From positions 1 through 29,334 of the forward strand of contig JBFLYA010000023.1 in the NCBI GenBank assembly GCA_040757115.1: a stretch of 29,334 bases of DNA, read 5' to 3'. This document shows positions 4,505 to 28,176 of the stretch, piece by piece. A program made the translations under genes and the position numbers. Source of the stretch: a bacterium (lineage in GTDB: Bacteria > UBA9089 > CG2-30-40-21 > SBAY01). Position 1 is the first letter of the stretch, and the number at the start of each line of letters is the position of its first letter. The notes under the pieces are model-generated. The model was given only the letters and a program-made list of their open reading frames with translations, did no database searches and was not told where the DNA came from.

Positions 4505-5986
4505 TTATTCTTCATGAAAGATTAAGCCTGTAAAGATATAGATTTCTGTCTCTTTTTCTTTCCAGGCGTTTGGCGGGAGGCCCGCTTTATAACAGGTATG
4601 GGTAAGGAATTGTTCACGATTCCAACCTTGCTCGGTGGCTACCTGAGGAAGAAGTAAGCCTGAATTATACCCTTTGACCATATAAAGTCCATGTTTGCCT
4701 ATTTCAATTTGCTCAATATCATTTATTCGTGTTAATTCTGAGAGAACCGTAATTTCAATCTTTATCTGGTCTAATTCATCTTTGGTTACAGGTGAAAATC
4801 TTGGGTCTTCTGTTGCGGCGGCAATAGCCATTTTACTCACAGCTTGAGCTACTGGGGCAATAGCCTTGATGTAACCAATACAACCACGCAATTGCTTATT
4901 TTTGGTAAGGGTAACAAATGCACCCGCCGGCTCTTGAAGCTCGGGATAATCATCTACCTCTACTGGTGGAATGTGCCTGTTTTTAATATAATCTTCTATC
5001 GTCCTTCTGGCAATTTTAAGCAATACCCCTTGTTCTTCCTTATCTAACATCATAGCTTTTTCCTCCTTTTGTGCAAAGATAACTGCTCCATAGCCAACTA
5101 CTTTTGATTTATCACCAATTATTGGCACATCACCCGAATTAGCATAATTTAAAACAGTTGCCTGGTGGATTCCAAGTTCTTTGGTGACCAACATTAATGT
5201 CAAAACCGCCCCAACTCCACAAAGCAAGGTGCTACATTTCTCATGGGGTTCATTGAGCCAGGCAACTAATTCATTAATATTCATCTCTTTGATTAAAGAG
5301 AGGGTTTTTTTATCTACCTTGTTGGCTATTTCATAAGGTGGATAATGAGTCATATCGGATGAGGCAATGAATAAAATATTTTTGCCTTTACTATTTAAAA
5401 TAAGACTTCTGGCTAAAACTTGAGCGTCATTTGGATTACTCATAAGTATTGGAACAATTTTAAATTCTTTCAATACCCGTTGAAGAAAAGGGATTTCAAC
5501 TTCTAACGAATGCTCTTTCTCATGGACTTGAGGTAAAGATTTAATTTTTGGGTCTGACTTGATTAATGCAGAGGTCAGCTCAGTGTCTATCTTTACCAAT
5601 CCAAATGGTGTCTGATAAGCATCAGATGTATCAACGGCAATACCATCAAAATGGGCAAAATGGCTCATTCCTATTATCACTACGGTATCAAATGAAAGTC
5701 CTTCGAGTTGTTTAAAACAATGAGCCGCGACCTCTCCTGAATAATCATACCCGGCGTGAGGCACCATTAAACCAATTATTCTACCCTCAATCTTTTCTTT
5801 TTGGACATTATTTAAGAAGCCGTTGATTTGATTTTTTAACTCTGTTGGGTCAGCGGGATAAAAACCACCAGCCACTGCTGGCTGACGAATATTTTGAGGA
5901 ATGTCTTTGCTCGGAGTTTGTGTTTGTGAACATCCCTGAACAGGTAATAATAGGCTTAAACTGATAATAAGTAATTTGTGCCACAT
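4505..5986 (-). CDS. Memo-AMMECR1 fusion lipoprotein (AmmeMemoRadiSam proteins B and A)
   Basis: A 493-residue fusion. Residues 1-19 form a lipoprotein signal ending VQGC, with C19 the lipidation site. Residues about 35-305 are a Memo-like domain (AmmeMemoRadiSam system protein B): MVPHAGYDYSG with H77, GMSHFAHFDG with H109/H112, SSDMTHYP with H214 and LCGVGAV with C256 resemble the metal-site residues of Memo. Residues about 318-493 are an AMMECR1 domain (protein A) carrying the hallmark LRGCIG at 366-371. The third partner of this conserved triad, a radical SAM enzyme, is not in the window. The start at 5986 is chosen because it gives an intact lipoprotein signal; the open frame back to 6157 is translated MITE sequence. 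The Shine-Dalgarno is weak (GGATATATTAAA). The biochemical role of the family is poorly defined. Confidence 0.9.
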   Translation of the reverse strand: MWHKLLIISLSLLLPVQGCSQTQTPSKDIPQNIRQPAVAGGFYPADPTELKNQINGFLNNVQKEKIEGRIIGLMVPHAGYDYSGEVAAHCFKQLEGLSFDTVVIIGMSHFAHFDGIAVDTSDAYQTPFGLVKIDTELTSALIKSDPKIKSLPQVHEKEHSLEVEIPFLQRVLKEFKIVPILMSNPNDAQVLARSLILNSKGKNILFIASSDMTHYPPYEIANKVDKKTLSLIKEMNINELVAWLNEPHEKCSTLLCGVGAVLTLMLVTKELGIHQATVLNYANSGDVPIIGDKSKVVGYGAVIFAQKEEKAMMLDKEEQGVLLKIARRTIEDYIKNRHIPPVEVDDYPELQEPAGAFVTLTKNKQLRGCIGYIKAIAPVAQAVSKMAIAAATEDPRFSPVTKDELDQIKIEITVLSELTRINDIEQIEIGKHGLYMVKGYNSGLLLPQVATEQGWNREQFLTHTCYKAGLPPNAWKEKETEIYIFTGLIFHEE

Positions 5987-5998
5987 TTTAATATATCC

Positions 5999-6099
5999 AT
6001 AGGAAGTAGAGAGTAGAAAGTAGAGAGTAGAGAGAAAATCTTTCCTCCACCTATGTTTCCCTATTTTCATTCTTCTCGGTTCATGTCCGTTCTCCTGAA
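5999..6099. repeat. Partial leader-type repeat module upstream of the Memo-AMMECR1 gene
   Basis: GGAAGTAGAGAGTAGAAAGTAGAG..., a CTATTTTCATTC stretch and TCATGTCCGTTCTCCTGAA match, in shortened form, the modules at 7166-7735 and 9084-9224. It ends in CTCCTGAA, which is duplicated on the other side of the MITE at 6100-6341, so the MITE jumped into this module. Confidence 0.7.
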
Positions 6100-6341
6100 G
6101 TAACCGTTCAGCCACAGAGGCACAGAGTTCACAGAGAATTAGAGAAATTAGCCACAAATGGACACGAATTAACCTGTGACATTCGATAAATGTAGTGCGA
6201 ACCTTTAGGTTCGCTTTCCTGCTTGCCAGAAGCGAGGCTAAAGCCTCGCACTACAAATCTTTTTATTATTCGTGTTCATTCGTGGTTATATATTCCCTCT
6301 GTGTTCTCTGTGACTCTGTGGCTATATCCCTGAACGGTTAC
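6100..6341. mobile_element. IS66-type MITE with 8-bp target duplication CTCCTGAA
   Basis: A 242-bp element with inverted ends GTAACCGTTCAG...CTGAACGGTTAC, flanked on both sides by CTCCTGAA (6092-6099 and 6342-6349), a perfect 8-bp target duplication. Inside are long complementary arms (CCACAGAGGCACAGAG against CTCTGTGACTCTGTGG) and a near-palindrome GCGAGGCTAAAGCCTCGC at the centre. GTAA ends and 8-bp duplications are typical of IS66-family elements; no transposase is encoded. Truncated or split relatives are at 83-203 and 20648-22069. The duplicated target is the Shine-Dalgarno-bearing tip of the leader-type repeat. Confidence 0.9.
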
Positions 6342-12171: not shown

Positions 12172-12183
12172 GAAAAATTTTTC

Positions 12184-12419
12184 GTAAGCGTTCAGGTGGT
12201 GTAACAAAAGGAGATGTGGAGATTAAGGAGATAGGGAGATATTATAAAAAAATTGAAATTAATAGAAACTAATAGAAATTTATGGAAATTTGTTGTTTTC
12301 CACAATCAATTTCTACCTATTTCTATAAATTTCAATCTATTTCTATTATCTTATCTCCATATCACTCTTATCTCCTTATCCCCTTTCTTACACTTTTGAT
12401 ATATAGCCTGAACGGTTAC
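12184..12419. mobile_element. 237-bp-family IS66-type MITE, copy 1
   Basis: A 236-bp element with ends GTAAGCGTTCAGG and CCTGAACGGTTAC. Nearly identical copies are at 25512-25748 (same orientation) and 16158-16394 (opposite). The interior folds on itself: ATAGAAATTTATGG...GTTGTTTTCCACAATC...CTATAAATTTCAATC. Flanks AATTTTTC and ATTTTTTT are only approximately alike. It sits between the divergent promoters of the PIG-L and ATPase genes; with those promoters it accounts for 12121-12462. Confidence 0.9.
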
Positions 12420-12428
12420 ATTTTTTTC

Positions 12429-16157: not shown

Positions 16158-16394
16158 GTAACCGTTCAGGCTATATATCAAAAGTGTAAGAAAGGGGATA
16201 AGGAGATAAGAGTGATATGGAGATAAGATAATAGAAATAGATTGAAATTTATAGAAATAGGTAGAAATTGATTGTGGAAAACAACAAATTTCCATAAATT
16301 TCTATTAGTTTCTATTAATTTCAATTTTTTTAATAATATCTCCCTATCTCCTTAATCTCCACATCTCCTTTTGTTACACCACCTGAACGCTTAC
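16158..16394. mobile_element. 237-bp-family IS66-type MITE, copy 2 (inverted), target duplication GAAAAGGA
   Basis: A 237-bp element, reverse complement of the copies at 12184 and 25512, flanked by GAAAAGGA at 16150-16157 and 16395-16402, an exact 8-bp target duplication. A lone terminus GTAAGCGTTCAG at 16129-16140 beside it suggests repeated insertions here. The rest of 16395-16520 is AG-rich low-complexity sequence without a gene. Confidence 0.92.
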
Positions 16395-16520
16395 GAAAAG
16401 GAGATGGGAAGATTACGAAAAGGAGATTAAGAGATTAGGGAAAAAGATTAATATAATTCCACTTTACTTAACTTCTCAATATCTCCATATATCTCTCTCT
16501 TTATCTCCTTATCCCCTTTT

Positions 16521-17005
16521 GTAACTATTCAGCCACAGATGGGCACGGATGAAACACTGAAAAATTCGTAATCCGTGTCCGTAATCAGGTTGAAGGCTGA
16601 AGGATTTTTCTCTTTCTGACTTTTGTTTTCTATCCTTCTTGATTCTCTGCCAGTGGAGGAAGATTCCACCCCCTTAATCCCCCGCCAGCGGGGGAGAATC
16701 CACCCCCTAACCCCCGCCCTTATCGTTACCCATAAGTTTTACTGGACAATGTTACATTCATTCACAATTCGCAATTCACCATTCACAATTCACAATTTCT
16801 TCCCTAAATCTTCTTAAAATGGTGAATGGTGAATTGTCAATTGTGAATTGTGAATTATTACTCTTCACGGTGTCCAGTAAAAATTGTGGGACATGCTAAG
16901 AACCCCCGCCAGCGGGGGACAACCCGCCTCTGCCCTCTGCCCTCTGCCCTCTGCCCTCTGTATTTATCCGTGTTTATCCGTATCAATCAGTGGCTGAATA
17001 GTTAC
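16521..17005. repeat. Composite 485-bp element with GTAACTATTCAGCCAC ends and a nested inverted repeat
   Basis: Same outer termini as 4276-4502, but twice as long. Inside are a near-perfect 24-bp inverted repeat (16763-16786 with 16822-16845), an outer nested pair AAGTTTTACTGGACA (from 16734) and TGTCCAGTAAAAATT (from 16871), GCCAGCGGGGG palindromes, and about five tandem copies of CCCTCTG near 16926-16960. The right end overlaps the last codons and stop of the Type IIG gene. No coding sequence other than that overlap is seen between 16103 and 16982. Confidence 0.8.
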
Positions 17006-20000
17006 CAATTATTTTTATCTCCTCCTCCCCTAAATTATACAACTTATAAATCAAACTGTCAATTTGGTCATCTATCCTTTCTATTTCCATGTCAATTTTA
17101 GTTAGATGGGGATTGGACACTTTTGCCCTGAATTCATTCATCATCAGATTAATCCTATCAAGGTTATATTCTACTGAATGAAGTTTGGCAGAGGTTTTAT
17201 AGACTAAAGTGATAAGGTTAGTTAAGATAATATCAACCACTATGCCATCTCCCCACTTTTTCTTTTTCCTTTTTTCCTTTAAGAATTTATTGATGGTATA
17301 GAAAATGAATAATCTCAAATTTTCGTCTTTAATGATTAATTCTAAAACAGGGGTATGGATTTTCGGTTCACTATCAACCTTAAATATAATTGACTCATTC
17401 TCTTCATAAATCTTTATGCCAGTAATTTGAGCTTCTGTTTGGGCAGAGATACCCGCTTTCTTCTCAATATATTTACTATACCCAGCCTTACTATAATAGG
17501 CATCTTTTAAAGATAGTGCTTCATAATCCGGATAATTGTTGATTAATTGGTCAAATCTCTTTAGCGTCAGATTTCTTTGCTTATGAAGATTAAGTATCTC
17601 ATCAACTAACTTAACCAACTCATCATACACCGCCTTTGAGTCCTGATTATCAAAGTCAATTTTATAGATAGGTATTTGTTCAATACTTTCGGGATAGACA
17701 TTTAGTTCATAACCAAGCATCAAATAGAAATAGAAGTTAATTAATTTTGAATTGATAAATCCTAATAGATACTTCAGGTCATAGTTTTTAGATGTTTGTA
17801 TTTCATCTTCTTTAATATAAATCTTATGTTTTCGTAATACACTCTGCTCAATGGCACATAATTTATGTTTTAGGACACAACAAGAAAGGGAATGGTCAGT
17901 ATAAAACCTTTCATTATCAAAACAAGCAATAAGCCCTTTCTTCCCTGTTACTTCACTTATGACTAATTTTTCATTTTCAAACAATTCCGGCAATGATGGG
18001 CGGTAGAGTTTTTCCTTATCATACAAAAACCATTTGCCTGCCGAATCTATCAAGTATCTGCTGACATTTTCTCCTTTAATCATTTTTTTACAATGTTTAT
18101 TGATTGGTTCATTTAAGTGAAATTTCTCTATGGGCACACCTCTTACGCCCCAGGAAACGGCGGCTATATCGCCAAGATAAAGGCTTTTGGCTTTAATCTT
18201 ATCAATAATGCCCAAAGTCTTTCCATTTAATTCCAATCTAAACATATTGTCAGGGGTATGTTCATAAACAGATTGTTTAACTTCAAGCACCCCATCAGTT
18301 ATTTCGTTCTCTATTTTAGGGTCTTTTTGAGGGAGAATAATCTGGATAGTATGGTCAGGCATCTTTCCTTTTTGACAAATGATAATGATATTTCGCACCA
18401 CTGCATCCTGGAATATACGATATTTTTTTAAATCAACAATGGTCAGGATTGAGGTATTTTCCAGTAAATATTTTCGCAAGTGCTGAGCATAATTTTGAGT
18501 TAAAAATGGATATGGAATGATAAAGCCCAATTTGCCACCTTCTTTAAGTAAATTTATTCCTCGTTCCATCATCCCAATGTAGATATCAAATCTTTTGACA
18601 GCGGTGGTATAATTTTTCATATAAAACATTCGCTCATCGGTTGGCAGGTTTTCTACATTGACATAAGGTGGATTGCCAATAACTATATCAAAACCTTCTA
18701 CCTCTGGGAATTCTATTTGCCAGTTAAATATCTTATTGGTCTGGTGATGTTCGAAGTATTTATTTAATGGCTCATTTAGTTTTATATTTAATTCATCACT
18801 AATTTCCTTGATTGAATCAAGGATTTCTTTATTTTCTTGCCCATTTTTAAGTTTTGCCCGCAGGCTAATAAGTGATTGTATTTTATCTTCAGATACATCC
18901 GTAGGTTCTGCCGAAATAAGTGAATTACCGACTTTAATATTTTGATTAAGGAGATAAGGTAATTTTTGTTTTCCAGACATTTTCTCAAAAGCCTTTAAGA
19001 TTAAATTTATAGTTGCTATTTCTGCGGCAGCCGAATCGATGTCCACACCGTATAAATGCTCACAGAGAATCTTGCGAGGATAGTCTAATACCTTTTGAGG
19101 TAATTGTTGTAATTCAAAACCCAGACTACTTTGTCCATGTTTTTTAAAGTATTTCTCCATTGTTTCTACCTGGAGTTTCTCTATTCGCTCATTTTCCTCT
19201 TCATAAAACTTACTTAAGATATCAAAGGCACAAATCAGAAATGACCCGGAGCCACAGGCAGGGTCTAAAATTTTAAGGTCTTTTATTTCATCAATCGTCT
19301 TACCTTGTAAATATTTTCCTAATGTCTGGTGAACAATATAATGGACGATAAATGGTGGTGTATAATAAACCCCTGCAGACCGACGCACTTCTGACTTTAT
19401 CTCTGCCTTTATCTTACCATTTTCAAGGGTAAATCTATAACCTAAATAACTTTCATAAGTTGCTCCTAAAATATCAGAGGTAAATTTACGAAAGCTGATA
19501 CGACAAAGTTCACAGATTATATCGGCTAATGTTTGGTTTGAGATAAATACTTGCTCACAAAGATGTCCTGGGGCAAAGATAGAGGTATTATGATGTTTAT
19601 CCATCATCATTGATAAATCAATCAAGGCATCAAAAAGAGAGGTTTCTTTCGCATAGGCTCCCTTTTGCAAAAACTCATTTAACATTGATTCTAAAAGGCT
19701 ATGCTGAAGAAGGACCTCTTTGTCATCTGCACATTGAATAACTAAAAGCCGACTCAATATCCGCTGAACAACATCCATCAGTATTTCAAAGTCAAAACTT
19801 CCATCTGATTTTACCAGGGCAGGATTATTCTTATTGTGGTCATAAATATTTTGGGCTAATCTAAGTCTCCAGGAGTGTAGAAATTTTAAGAATGAATAAT
19901 CTATTTCTTCTCTATGTAATTGAGCCTCCCACCATTCCAAGGATTTTGTCTTAACCTTATCTTTAGATAAAAGTAATAATTCATCTAATCTCTCAAGGTA

Positions 20001-20471
20001 TTCAGAAGGTGAATCAAAGGAAAGGATTAATTGCTCTTTATCAACATTAAAAAGATAAAGTCGTTGGAAATTGGTCAGGATAGCCCAGGGAATTTTACAA
20101 GTCCGGGCATATCGAAAGGCTTGTTTTTCATCTGAGGTTCTATCGATATATTTTTCCTGGCGGTCTGATTTAGACAGGATTTTATCAAATCTTTTCGTTT
20201 CAATAAAAATAATCGGTTCTGTCTCCAGTTCTAACCCAATATCCACAAATCCTGCTTTATCAAACGGCGTTGTTGGTCGAATATATTTTTCTCGATTATA
20301 TCTATTATCCTGACCTAAAGTATTATAGACATTCCAGCCAAGTATTAAGAATAACTTATCAACATAATTTGCCCGGACATCTGCTTCAGAAATATCTTTA
20401 TTTCCCTGTGAGTAGTATTGTGAGTAATATTTAGAAATTAGCGCTTTCAGTTCTTTTTTTATCTCTTCCAT
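16983..20471 (-). CDS. Type IIG (Eco57I-like) restriction-modification enzyme
   Basis: A 1162-residue single-chain restriction endonuclease and adenine methyltransferase. Residues about 1-100 form a PD-(D/E)xK nuclease: GFVDIGLELETEPIIFIETKR with D77, E91 and K93. A helical linker follows. The gamma-class N6-adenine methyltransferase has SAM motif I DPACGSGSF at 403-411 and catalytic NPPY at 600-603. The remaining C-terminal half resembles TaqI/Eco57I target-recognition regions. One protein therefore cuts and methylates, and no partner subunit is needed or seen. The start at 20471 is supported by a promoter ending 10 nt upstream; the in-frame ATG at 20510 overlaps the -35 box. The last seven residues (GNYSATD) and the stop come from the terminus of the adjoining MITE, so the native C-terminus may have been replaced. 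Recognition sequence is unknown. Confidence 0.93.
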   Translation of the reverse strand: MEEIKKELKALISKYYSQYYSQGNKDISEADVRANYVDKLFLILGWNVYNTLGQDNRYNREKYIRPTTPFDKAGFVDIGLELETEPIIFIETKRFDKILSKSDRQEKYIDRTSDEKQAFRYARTCKIPWAILTNFQRLYLFNVDKEQLILSFDSPSEYLERLDELLLLSKDKVKTKSLEWWEAQLHREEIDYSFLKFLHSWRLRLAQNIYDHNKNNPALVKSDGSFDFEILMDVVQRILSRLLVIQCADDKEVLLQHSLLESMLNEFLQKGAYAKETSLFDALIDLSMMMDKHHNTSIFAPGHLCEQVFISNQTLADIICELCRISFRKFTSDILGATYESYLGYRFTLENGKIKAEIKSEVRRSAGVYYTPPFIVHYIVHQTLGKYLQGKTIDEIKDLKILDPACGSGSFLICAFDILSKFYEEENERIEKLQVETMEKYFKKHGQSSLGFELQQLPQKVLDYPRKILCEHLYGVDIDSAAAEIATINLILKAFEKMSGKQKLPYLLNQNIKVGNSLISAEPTDVSEDKIQSLISLRAKLKNGQENKEILDSIKEISDELNIKLNEPLNKYFEHHQTNKIFNWQIEFPEVEGFDIVIGNPPYVNVENLPTDERMFYMKNYTTAVKRFDIYIGMMERGINLLKEGGKLGFIIPYPFLTQNYAQHLRKYLLENTSILTIVDLKKYRIFQDAVVRNIIIICQKGKMPDHTIQIILPQKDPKIENEITDGVLEVKQSVYEHTPDNMFRLELNGKTLGIIDKIKAKSLYLGDIAAVSWGVRGVPIEKFHLNEPINKHCKKMIKGENVSRYLIDSAGKWFLYDKEKLYRPSLPELFENEKLVISEVTGKKGLIACFDNERFYTDHSLSCCVLKHKLCAIEQSVLRKHKIYIKEDEIQTSKNYDLKYLLGFINSKLINFYFYLMLGYELNVYPESIEQIPIYKIDFDNQDSKAVYDELVKLVDEILNLHKQRNLTLKRFDQLINNYPDYEALSLKDAYYSKAGYSKYIEKKAGISAQTEAQITGIKIYEENESIIFKVDSEPKIHTPVLELIIKDENLRLFIFYTINKFLKEKRKKKKWGDGIVVDIILTNLITLVYKTSAKLHSVEYNLDRINLMMNEFRAKVSNPHLTKIDMEIERIDDQIDSLIYKLYNLGEEEIKIIGNYSATD

Positions 20472-20481
20472 AGTAGGAAGT

Positions 20482-20510
20482 ATTATATCAAACAATCCCT
20501 TCAAATGCAA
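20482..20510 (-). promoter_or_regulatory. Promoter of the Type IIG gene, probably giving a leaderless mRNA
   Basis: On the minus strand TTGCAT (20510-20505), 17 bp, TATAAT (20487-20482), then 10 nt to the ATG at 20471. Predicted leader is 0-4 nt and there is no Shine-Dalgarno (ACTTCCTACT). Confidence 0.65.
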
Positions 20511-20749: not shown

Positions 20750-21928
20750 TGGTTTTTGCAAAAGTAAGTTCCACTTTTTTAACCTGGTTTTATAAGAACA
20801 GGTTTTAGTCCAAGAGAAGTGAATACTTGCTCTCTTTGATCTTTGACATCTTCAAGAAAGTCTTGAGCTCCTTGGATGACTTCTTGTATTTCGGTCCAAG
20901 GGTGATTATGGGTAACACAGCGGCGCATCCATCTCCATAATCGTTCCATAGGGTTTAACCATGGAGCATATGTCGGTAAGGGTAACAACTCGATACGGGA
21001 ATGTTTCTTTAGCCAATCTTCAACTGAGTTGCTAAAATGAACTCCCCAATTGTCCAAAACAATCGTAATTCGTTTAGCCCACCAATATGTTTGCTCGACT
21101 TGCTCTAAGAATGTAATGAAAGAAGTAGATGCTCCTGTGAGACTAATTAGGTAAAGGATTTTTCCATATACCGCGTTGACTGCTCCAAAAATACAGCGTG
21201 TACTCTCTGAGGTGCCCTTACCAACCTGAGGAGGTTTACTCCCTTTGGGAAAGTAACATTTGCTTAATGTAGGTCGACGTCCCAGGTGACATTCGTCCTC
21301 ATAAAGAAATACATTCTCATCAGAGCAAACTTGTGCTTTTTGACGACGTTCTTCTATCAATGCAACTTTGTTTAGATATTTAGGATCTGGGCTCCAACAT
21401 CGATGAACTGCGCATTTGAAACGGATTCCTGCGCGGCGAAGTGTCCTCCATACAGTAGCTTGAGAAACCTGAATGTTTTTTAGAATTATCTCTTTCAACA
21501 GAACTAATGTCCAGGTAGAGTGAGGTTCTCCATAAGCTCTTGGATTACTTCGGGCTGCTTGCACTAATTGTTGTGTTTGTTCTGGGTTTATTTTTTAATG
21601 CCGTCCCTGTCGAGGACGGCTATATAACCCTGAAATTCCCTCTTTCTCATAGCGACGTATCCAGTAGCGGACTTTTTTCTTAGACATCTGCAAAGCATCA
21701 GCAATGTTTGGTACAGAAACCTTCTTAGCTGATAACTGAATTATTCTAACGCGCCGCCAGAGACATGCAGAGGGAGGCCTTCGAGAGAGAAGAGTCAATT
21801 CTTCTTGCTCTTCTTCAGTTAATATTTTGACAAAGATCATTTTTTCCCTCCTTTGTCGATAGATTTTTCTCTACTATATTTATCGGCAAGAGAGGCAAAA
21901 AAGTGTAACTTATTTATGAAAAAATCAT
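20750..21928. mobile_element. IS630-family insertion sequence
   Basis: About 1179 bp with imperfect inverted ends of about 31 bp: TGGTTTTTGCAAAAGTAAG on the left and the complement of a TGATTTTTTCATAAATAAG end on the right. It is flanked by TA on both sides (20748-20749 and 21929-21930), the target duplicated by IS630/Tc1-mariner elements. It encodes one transposase frame broken by a stop codon and is inserted at the central palindrome of a MITE. Confidence 0.9.
20779..21840 (-). pseudogene. IS630-family transposase interrupted by one in-frame stop
   Basis: Reads as one 353-residue frame broken by TAA at 21595-21597. The first 81 residues (MIFVKILTEEEQEELTLLS..., 21840-21595) form the helix-turn-helix DNA-binding part, started by an excellent AAGGAGG. 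The same frame resumes directly after the stop (KINPEQTQQLVQAARSNPRAYG) and carries the complete DDE domain: LYEDECHLG, IVLDNWGVHFS and the NPMERLWRW motif with the final glutamate. Because both parts share one frame, a programmed frameshift is not needed to join them, although the stop sits at an A-rich tract. Either a recent nonsense mutation, readthrough, or two separate polypeptides (a GTG at 21564 could start the second). Confidence 0.85.
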
Positions 21929-25492: not shown

Positions 25493-25511
25493 TTTTTTCC
25501 CTCCTTTATTT

Positions 25512-25748
25512 GTAAGCGTTCAGGTGGTGTAACAAAAGGAGATGTGGAGATTAAGGAGATAGGGAGATATTATTAAAAAAATTGAAATTAATAGAAACTA
25601 ATAGAAATTTATGGAAATTTGTTGTTTTCCACAATCAATTTCTACCTATTTCTATAAATTTCAATCTATTTCTATTATCTTATCTCCATATCTCCCTTAT
25701 CTCCTTATCCCCCTTCTTACACTTTTGATGCATAGCCTGAACGGTTAC
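25512..25748. mobile_element. 237-bp-family IS66-type MITE, copy 3, target duplication CTTTATTT
   Basis: A 237-bp element nearly identical to 12184-12419, flanked by CTTTATTT at 25504-25511 and 25749-25756, an exact 8-bp target duplication. It lies between the pilin promoter and the pilin Shine-Dalgarno. The neighbouring 25757-25890 is repeat-like (CCACAAAGACACGAAG / CTTTGTGCCTTCGGG) without a gene. Confidence 0.93.
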
Positions 25749-26128: not shown

Positions 26129-26524
26129 TTAATAATAAATATATATCTCCAGATCAGGTCTTGTATTTCGATGGAGCTGACGGAAATCACGGTCAAAATT
26201 TATTTCACTCGTATAACTCAGGACAAGTCTTTTGTTTTTCCCGGTTCCCATTTTGTCTATTAATGAAGTAGGATATTTTAACACTGGCTGTTCTTCTAAA
26301 TCTACATCTTCATTAACTAACCGAAATCCCGGAATTAATCTACCCTTACTTTTTATATAGTCTTCTTTTACTTCCTTAACTAAATAAGTTCGTTCCTTTC
26401 GCTCAAAATAGACATTTGATTTGATTAATACTTTTTTATCCGTAAGTTCTTGTTGAAGAATCTGTAAATTATCCTTTCTTAACTTAGCCCATGGGTCTAT
26501 TTCTCTATCTTTTTGATAAATCAT
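26129..26524 (-). CDS. Uncharacterised 131-residue protein between sepS and tRNA-Leu
   Basis: I do not recognise a family. The protein (MIYQKDREIDPWAKLRKD...) is highly charged, has no signal peptide or membrane segment, and looks soluble and mixed alpha/beta, with a beta-like stretch VLIKSNVYFERKERTYLVKEV. Evidence that it is real: a full consensus promoter (26546-26573), a strong Shine-Dalgarno AAGGAAGG 6 nt before the ATG, and normal amino-acid composition. It starts 45 bp after the sepS stop and is followed by tRNA-Leu on the same strand, so a role related to tRNA or to SepRS is possible but only by position. It does not resemble what I know of the SepRS helper SepCysE, which is larger. 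Confidence 0.7.
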   Translation of the reverse strand: MIYQKDREIDPWAKLRKDNLQILQQELTDKKVLIKSNVYFERKERTYLVKEVKEDYIKSKGRLIPGFRLVNEDVDLEEQPVLKYPTSLIDKMGTGKNKRLVLSYTSEINFDRDFRQLHRNTRPDLEIYIYY

Positions 26525-26545: not shown

Positions 26546-26573
26546 ATTATACCCAAAAATCTCATAATGTCAA
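26546..26573 (-). promoter_or_regulatory. Consensus promoter overlapping the sepS stop codon
   Basis: On the minus strand TTGACA (26573-26568), 16 bp, TATAAT (26551-26546). The TGA stop of sepS lies inside the -35 hexamer. It would drive the 131-residue ORF and possibly tRNA-Leu. Confidence 0.75.
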
Positions 26574-28138
26574 CAATTTTTTATTTGTGCTTTTAGTCCA
26601 AAAAACAATGGTCCACCTACCTCTATTTTTTTGTTATTAGCTGTAATATATCGATTTACAAAATCAGGGATAAAAAGGTTAATCTCACTGGGGCGTTTAG
26701 CCATTTTGTAGCGTTCATCAATGGTATTTTTACCTTCTTTAATTGCCTTTTCTAATTTAGCCACAAAGCCATTGACAATATTATTCAAATAGATTAAGTT
26801 AGTCTTAATTCCATCTACTCGAGCTAAATTAGCCAGATTGCTTAATTTCCCTTTTTGTAATTGGCTCGATAATCCTATGATATTGCCTTCATAGACATAT
26901 ATTTCATTAAAAGCGGCAAAAGAAAGCATTGGTTTTCCCACATCCCAATTATAGACCCAAACTTTTATCTGTTCATCTTGATATGCTAAAATTTCTACAG
27001 GTCCAATATCATCCTTATGCAAAGTTGCAGTTTCAATTAACGATTGAGCTAATTTTTCCCCCATAGCCGTTGTTGGAAATCCTTCTACGGTTAGTTCTTG
27101 AGTAATATCTTCATCAGTTAATTTTTGTTCTTCCCCATAGACTAAAGTTCGTATATCAGATACCTTTTGTTCAAGCATGGCTAATCTTTCTACCCCAAAA
27201 CCTAAGTTAAATACAGGGTATTTAATATCATAATTTGCCAATGCCACCGGGGAATAAAATCCAATATTAGCCACTTCAATCTGTTGAGTTCCTATTTGCG
27301 AATAGACCTCATATTCTGAACCTGGTGTGTAGTATTTACTCGTAACCTTCTTTTTAATAAATTCGGGTTTGCCAAACCCCAGTTCAAATAAGACCATTTT
27401 AGTAAATTCAATTCCATCTTCTGCGGTTATTTCATCATTCATAATTACGACTGAGGCAGATGTGCTTTCGTATAAATGATGCGGGTCAAGTCTTTGTTCC
27501 CGTCTAAATCGTGAACCAATGGAAAAAAGTTTCACCGGAATTTTAGTTTGATTTTTAGATAAATAATTAAACCATGCCGCGGTCATATGTGAGCGTAAGG
27601 TAAATTTAGTTGGAATTGGTTTTAACGCCTTAAATTCTGGAAAAACCCGGTCAATGATTAAAGTCGCTATTTCTTCTTTAATATCAAGATTTTTGACTAA
27701 TTCCTCAATCAAGTCATCACTTTCTATTGTTCCTTTTTTAAAGGCACGGAATACCTCTTCTATGTTTTTTTCTTTTTTAAAATCAGGTATAATCTTTTTT
27801 ATTTCCTCAATCTTACGATTACTAATGCCAATATCAGGTCTTGGTAAGCCTGCCAGGTAAAATATCCTATCTAAAATCACCGGTGCCTCTGGTCCATACT
27901 GACGATATACCTCGCCTTCCTCAATAATCGCTGGATTTATTATTTCATCTAATCCAAGTCGTAAGAATACCTCACGGAATTTTAGATTAAGTGAAATAAT
28001 CGGATGTTCTTTACCTCGAGTGGGTTGTTCCCAGAGCATTTTTCGTCCGCTTAAATTAACTAATTTTGCTGTTTCTAACCATGTTTGTTCAAAATCCTTT
28101 TTAGCCTTTTCCTTAATTTTTCTTATATTATATTCCAT
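26570..28138 (-). CDS. sepS: O-phosphoseryl-tRNA(Cys) synthetase (SepRS)
   Basis: A class II aminoacyl-tRNA synthetase that attaches O-phosphoserine to tRNA-Cys; SepCysS then converts it to Cys-tRNA. The 522 residues match the archaeal length (about 535). Similarity to methanogen SepRS as I remember it runs the whole length: KAKKDFEQTW, INPAIIEEGEVYRQYGPEA, DRIFYLAGLPRPDIGIS, FTLRSHMTAAWF, motif 2 FRREQ (211-215), STSAS (225-229), YSPVALANYDIKYPVFNLGFGVERL with motif 3 R318, and a C-terminal NEIYVYEGNIIG. The phosphate-contacting residues known from SepRS structures appear kept: H184 and T186, S227 and S229, and N311. This separates it from PheRS, its closest relative. No SepCysS, SepCysE or tRNA-Cys is in the window. 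The promoter ends 9 nt before the ATG and there is no Shine-Dalgarno, so the mRNA is probably leaderless. Confidence 0.95.
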   Translation of the reverse strand: MEYNIRKIKEKAKKDFEQTWLETAKLVNLSGRKMLWEQPTRGKEHPIISLNLKFREVFLRLGLDEIINPAIIEEGEVYRQYGPEAPVILDRIFYLAGLPRPDIGISNRKIEEIKKIIPDFKKEKNIEEVFRAFKKGTIESDDLIEELVKNLDIKEEIATLIIDRVFPEFKALKPIPTKFTLRSHMTAAWFNYLSKNQTKIPVKLFSIGSRFRREQRLDPHHLYESTSASVVIMNDEITAEDGIEFTKMVLFELGFGKPEFIKKKVTSKYYTPGSEYEVYSQIGTQQIEVANIGFYSPVALANYDIKYPVFNLGFGVERLAMLEQKVSDIRTLVYGEEQKLTDEDITQELTVEGFPTTAMGEKLAQSLIETATLHKDDIGPVEILAYQDEQIKVWVYNWDVGKPMLSFAAFNEIYVYEGNIIGLSSQLQKGKLSNLANLARVDGIKTNLIYLNNIVNGFVAKLEKAIKEGKNTIDERYKMAKRPSEINLFIPDFVNRYITANNKKIEVGGPLFFGLKAQIKNC

Positions 28139-28147
28139 TATGTTGTA

Positions 28148-28176
28148 ACTATACCATTTATTTATCTCTTTGTCAA
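28148..28176 (-). promoter_or_regulatory. sepS promoter, probably giving a leaderless mRNA
   Basis: On the minus strand TTGACA (28176-28171), 17 bp, TATAGT (28153-28148), then TACAACATA and the ATG. Expected leader 0-3 nt. Confidence 0.75.

Follow-up and report, generated by a model that had tools for sequence, protein, structure and literature searches.

The window, by which we mean the whole stretch of 29,334 nucleotides analyzed here, is contig C23 of a bacterial MAG (G000; 4.3 Mb in 462 contigs, 99.87% complete, 1.41% contaminated). It carries sepS, the gene for O-phosphoseryl-tRNA synthetase (SepRS), as a complete open reading frame (ORF) with an ATG start that encodes 522 amino acids (Table 1). 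The adjoining genes are bacterial, namely, those for SerRS, Maf, ArgJ, MotA/ExbB, prephenate dehydrogenase, and a pilin, and sepS has a strong bacterial promoter of its own; on both points the initial annotation was right. With only about 9 bases between the end of this promoter and the ATG, the leader would be very short. It is conserved in G005, a MAG of the same genus, and recurs as TTGACA-17-TATATT in G006, which belongs to a different genus and whose sepS gene is 78% identical to that of the window in DNA. The ORF directly downstream of sepS was considered as a pathway partner and rejected, because it is kept in G005 but was not seen beside sepS in the G006 locus. This ORF is itself preceded by a perfect sigma-70 promoter, located where sepS ends. 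The window also encodes an IS630 transposase split into two ORFs (261 and 81 amino acids; frameshifted or programmed), a 1175-amino-acid adenine-specific DNA methyltransferase that is related to BREX PglX and type II enzymes and missed the cut-offs of the BREX models, and a single protein in which Memo and AMMECR1 domains are fused.

Table 1. Features of the window, with positions counted from its first letter
Feature	Position	Strand	Basis or remark
sepS (SepRS, O-phosphoseryl-tRNA synthetase)	26570..28138	-	TIGR00470 and full-length match to 2du7/5x6c/2du3/2odr
Sigma-70 promoter of sepS, TTGACA-17-TATAGT	28148..28176	-	11/12 consensus, TG before -10
H184-x-T186 codons (Sep-pocket motif)	27581..27589	-	Alignment to archaeal SepRS
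S227-x-S229 codons (Sep-pocket motif)	27452..27460	-	Alignment to archaeal SepRS
N311-x-G313 codons (Asn-X-Gly motif)	27200..27208	-	Alignment to archaeal SepRS
Sigma-70 promoter preceding the 131-aa ORF	26546..26573	-	12/12 consensus
131-aa ORF directly downstream of sepS	26129..26524	-	No NCBIfam or Pfam match
IS630 transposase	20779..21840	-	
Adenine-specific DNA methyltransferase	16983..20510	-	
Memo-AMMECR1 fusion protein	4505..6157	-	
Dispersed repeat, roughly 240 bp	12180..12420, 16158..16398, 25509..25748		Three copies

The SepRS of the window comprises the canonical N-terminal extension, a class II catalytic core, and a C-terminal anticodon-binding domain. It scores 475.7 bits against the NCBIfam SepRS profile TIGR00470 (curated cut-off, 380.65 bits), with residues 4 to 520 on profile positions 4 to 533, and phmmer aligned it over its whole length with the SepRS structures solved for M. 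jannaschii (2du7/5x6c; E = 3e-114), A. fulgidus (2du3; E = 5e-105), and M. maripaludis. When aligned to 2du3, 2du7, and 2odr, H184/T186, S227/S229, and N311/G313 all match the archaeal enzymes; the initial annotation had named H-x-T, S-x-S, and N311 with the correct residue numbers. Loss of the Asn-X-Gly motif is a mark of SepRS-like proteins (PMC8762117). Leu423 occupies the position of A. fulgidus Ile444, so that a hydrophobic residue is kept. At the level of sequence, these comparisons confirm the ORF as a genuine, full-length SepRS of the archaeal type, as first proposed. We infer that its product is a functional bacterial SepRS, predicted to ligate O-phosphoserine to ordinary tRNA-Cys. 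Two SepRS-like proteins that we came across in Methanocellales MAGs (L043:8001-9551 and L044:769-2319) carry N-x-S for S-x-S and N-S-G for N-L-G and possibly have another amino acid specificity.

The genome of the window also encodes an intact CysRS (contig C306, 546 bits). Contamination was considered for contig C306 and rejected, as a 127-bp genome-specific repeat on this contig matches the window exactly and the CysRS gene has about 80% DNA identity to its counterparts in G006 and G007; by these marks, the CysRS of G000 is native. ARAGORN found 47 tRNAs, all with standard anticodons. Both tRNA-Cys genes among them have the GCA anticodon, U73, and A37, and hence a candidate SepRS substrate is available. 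As to the tRNA-Cys identity bases that had been proposed for comparison with archaea, GCA and U73 are present, and A37 takes the place of the archaeal-type G37. The suggestion that SepRS charges an unusual tRNA with phosphoserine found no support, since no dedicated or suppressor tRNA and no tRNA with an odd anticodon was found among the 47. The second tRNA-Cys gene (contig C60, L129:6338-6412) has an unusual T-loop, TGCAAAT, with G at position 55, and lies in a G+C-richer island of redox genes; tRNA-Cys genes of G010 and G011 have this T-loop as well, and genes of the island recur in G010.

While the search for partners thus recovered CysRS and tRNA-Cys, it found no SepCysS above the cut-off in the G000 assembly. 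Two weak matches (37 and 26 bits) were rejected, as their sequences resemble PLP enzymes of the Orn/Lys/Arg-decarboxylase type and the class V aminotransferase type. In the sister genome G005, SepCysS (525 bits; contig C172:551-1723) is followed by HcyBio and has a repeat on either side (about 143-538 and 1953-2200); the latter repeat has dozens of copies in G000. The syntenic contig of G000 (C263) starts at the equivalent of G005 C172:2633, within HcyBio and 0.9 kb downstream of SepCysS. Because short-read assemblies tend to drop short pieces between repeats, we read the absence as an assembly gap: by comparison with this one sister genome, the SepCysS gene of G000 presumably lies in a repeat-flanked break, and a true loss was judged less likely once the synteny had been compared. 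The roughly 240-bp repeat of the window, which occurs in dozens of places genome-wide, interrupts the assembly, and genes like that for SepCysS can be hidden in this way. G005 itself is rated 100% complete, yet its CysRS is hidden by a contig break; contig C43 ends exactly at the start of the CysRS region, and a real absence of CysRS from G005 was therefore rejected.

We compared 19 genomes of the phylum, four of which (G001 to G004) form one family. SepRS occurs in 12 of the 19 genomes. SepCysS is encoded by 12 of the 15 genomes outside that family, 10 of them with matches over the TIGR cut-off; those of G011 and G017 fall short of it but exceed the threshold of another SepCysS model. All 15 have SepRS and/or SepCysS, and nine have both genes, while the family G001 to G004 has neither gene and encodes CysRS in all four genomes. 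SepRS is, as the initial annotation held, uncommon among bacteria according to published work (PMC5424206, PMC8762117), yet in this phylum the enzyme is the rule. CysRS exceeds its cut-off in 5 of the 15 genomes. No intact CysRS was seen in the other 10 (G005, owing to the contig end, and G008, G009, G010, and G013 to G018), including six that are at least 95% complete (G008, G009, G010, G015, G016, and G017). A looser second search for partial CysRS in G005, G008 to G010, and G013 to G017 gave only 24- to 26-bit matches inside long open frames. In G018 (84% complete), CysRS residues 6 to 47 and 468 to 501 lie in different frames within 250 bases (contig C185, L176:473-717), and about 420 codons between them are gone; this remnant would be the scar of a deletion, unless the contig is misassembled. 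None of the 15 genomes carrying SepRS and/or SepCysS, G000 included, yielded a cysteine synthase of the CysK/M type, which was found in three of the four genomes of family G001 to G004, a contrast of one clade with the rest that is not phylogenetically independent and has the weight of few events. Every tRNA-Cys found in the phylum has the GCA anticodon and A37.

Of the tree of archaeal and bacterial SepRS proposed in the initial annotation, the part built here holds the 12 sequences of the phylum and five archaeal ones. It separates the two sets with 100/100 support and, wherever a family is represented by two or more sequences, keeps these together, which is consistent with inheritance of SepRS within the phylum. 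The family of the window keeps the canonical N-terminal extension. In G009 (L065) and G011 (L067), SepRS has an N-terminal tRNA-Thr_ED domain, the editing domain of archaeal ThrRS (Pfam PF08915), and the enzyme of G010 (L068) has an equally long N-terminus, judged by its sequence. SepCysS adjoins HcyBio, NIL-ferredoxin, sulfide-dependent Thi4, LarE, or MnmA in several members of the phylum, and the SepRS and SepCysS genes are not adjacent in the relatives of the window.

The SepRS of the window shares its N-terminal extension, core, Sep-pocket motifs, and anticodon domain with the SepRS-SepCysS systems of methanogens and Archaeoglobi (M. jannaschii, A. fulgidus, and M. maripaludis), and the methanogen-type sulfide assimilation genes (HcyBio and NIL-ferredoxin) lie near SepCysS in its relatives. 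In contrast to the archaeal system, the host is a bacterium, its tRNA-Cys has A37 instead of the G37 of the archaeal m1G37 type, sepS stands under its own sigma-70 promoter and does not adjoin SepCysS, and the enzymes of the phylum form a separate group in the tree. Chloroflexi and "Ca. Parcubacteria" likewise have A37 in tRNA-Cys, and their SepRS co-occurs with methanogen-type homocysteine genes; Chloroflexi carrying SepRS have methanogen-type sulfur genes (PMC5424206). However, SepRS and SepCysS form an operon in these bacteria, whereas the two genes are apart in the relatives of the window, and their enzymes mostly have Asp at the position of A. fulgidus Ile444, where the window has Leu (PMC5424206). 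An N-terminal ThrRS editing domain on SepRS has been described in "Desantisbacteria-like" bacteria and in Nitrospirae HyVt-268 (PMC8762117). G009 and G011, and G010 by its sequence, have this architecture, and the phylum of the window is probably the "Desantisbacteria-like" group of that study.

We hypothesize that SepRS, presumably active, would ligate O-phosphoserine onto the ordinary tRNA-Cys of the cell and that SepCysS, presumably encoded in G000 as well, would swap the phosphate for sulfide-derived sulfur to give Cys-tRNA-Cys. A37 should be no obstacle, since SepRS and SepCysS from other bacterial phyla work on A37 tRNA-Cys in vitro (PMC5424206). The Cys-tRNA-Cys would feed translation, and because the genome has no cysteine synthase of the CysK/M type, free cysteine for metabolism would flow from deacylation and protein turnover. 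CysRS would recharge tRNA-Cys with free cysteine in the genome of the window. Since it can do so, SepRS may here mainly serve biosynthesis, and coding could do without it, should the cell be able to import cysteine. In the relatives without CysRS, the indirect route would be the sole route for coding cysteine. Hence, SepRS very probably starts a tRNA-dependent synthesis that is the cysteine source of the cell, CysK/M being the alternative that was looked for. The observations behind this reading are the identity and motifs of SepRS, the presence of CysRS, the absence of CysK/M, the ordinary tRNA-Cys, and SepCysS in relatives. The initial annotation had suggested an indirect supply of Cys-tRNA or of cysteine itself, and SepCysS in G005 and in 12 of the 15 genomes outside family G001 to G004, together with the gap at the locus in G000, where the gene is unseen, and the missing CysK/M, supports it.

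Archaeal contamination or a chimeric contig would fit a SepRS family that is best known from archaea and a MAG as fragmented as this one, yet we regard it as hardly conceivable. Bacterial genes surround sepS, the contig itself carries genome-specific repeats, and SepRS occurs in most genomes of the phylum, where the tree sets it apart from the archaeal enzymes. A chimeric contig is ruled out by the second MAG of the genus, G005, which has the SepRS region in identical gene order at 97% identity over 4.6 kb. Archaeal contamination is thus excluded, and with it one of the two findings that the initial annotation had held would overturn it. The other, a place in PheRS or another class II family, is answered by the profile scores: the best other class II match is PheS at 78.2 bits, under its own cut-off of 237.45 bits, and the protein falls outside PheRS alpha. 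The PheS match does reflect that SepRS is related to PheRS alpha, and SepRS-like proteins with changed pockets exist (PMC8762117), so that a SepRS-like enzyme of altered amino acid specificity or a diverged PheRS-type ligase might be envisaged. We consider this very improbable, as the protein scores above the SepRS cut-off and far below that for PheS and as its H-x-T, S-x-S, and N-x-G motifs are intact, unlike those of the altered SepRS-like proteins.

Another explanation is that SepRS stands alone, SepCysS having truly been lost and CysRS making Cys-tRNA, with SepRS either a relic or a maker of Sep-tRNA for another use, such as phosphoserine insertion or a tRNA-dependent tailoring enzyme. A MAG of 99.87% completeness with no SepCysS over the cut-off and with a native CysRS would be in line with this, but the SepCysS site falls in a repeat-flanked contig break, and a similar break hides CysRS in G005 despite its completeness rating. 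In addition, neither sepS nor its promoter is damaged and their conservation stands at 97%, Cys codons would be misread if there were no SepCysS to convert Sep-tRNA-Cys, and the genome is without a cysteine synthase. We therefore hold a lone SepRS to be improbable and prefer tRNA-dependent cysteine synthesis.

Bacterial SepRS has been known since 2017 and, since 2022, in a probably identical group. The fresh part seems to be the near phylum-wide presence, with no cysteine synthase and with CysRS apparently lost from several lineages. In the open papers searched, we found no statement of near phylum-wide SepRS with loss of CysK and CysRS, and none that any bacteria lack CysRS. In nearly all known bacteria, CysRS charges tRNA-Cys directly. 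On balance, we favor the view that the phylum, except for one family, depends on tRNA-dependent cysteine and that several of its lineages lost CysRS and would read every Cys codon via Sep-tRNA-Cys. The family of the window would then be an intermediate that keeps CysRS and G018 would bear the scar of the loss. If this is true, the swap from direct to indirect coding of cysteine can be traced stage by stage within bacteria. The mixture of lineages with and without CysRS would make it testable how a bacterium swaps its amino acid coding route and whether cysteine synthase is lost along with this swap in anaerobes living amid plentiful sulfide.
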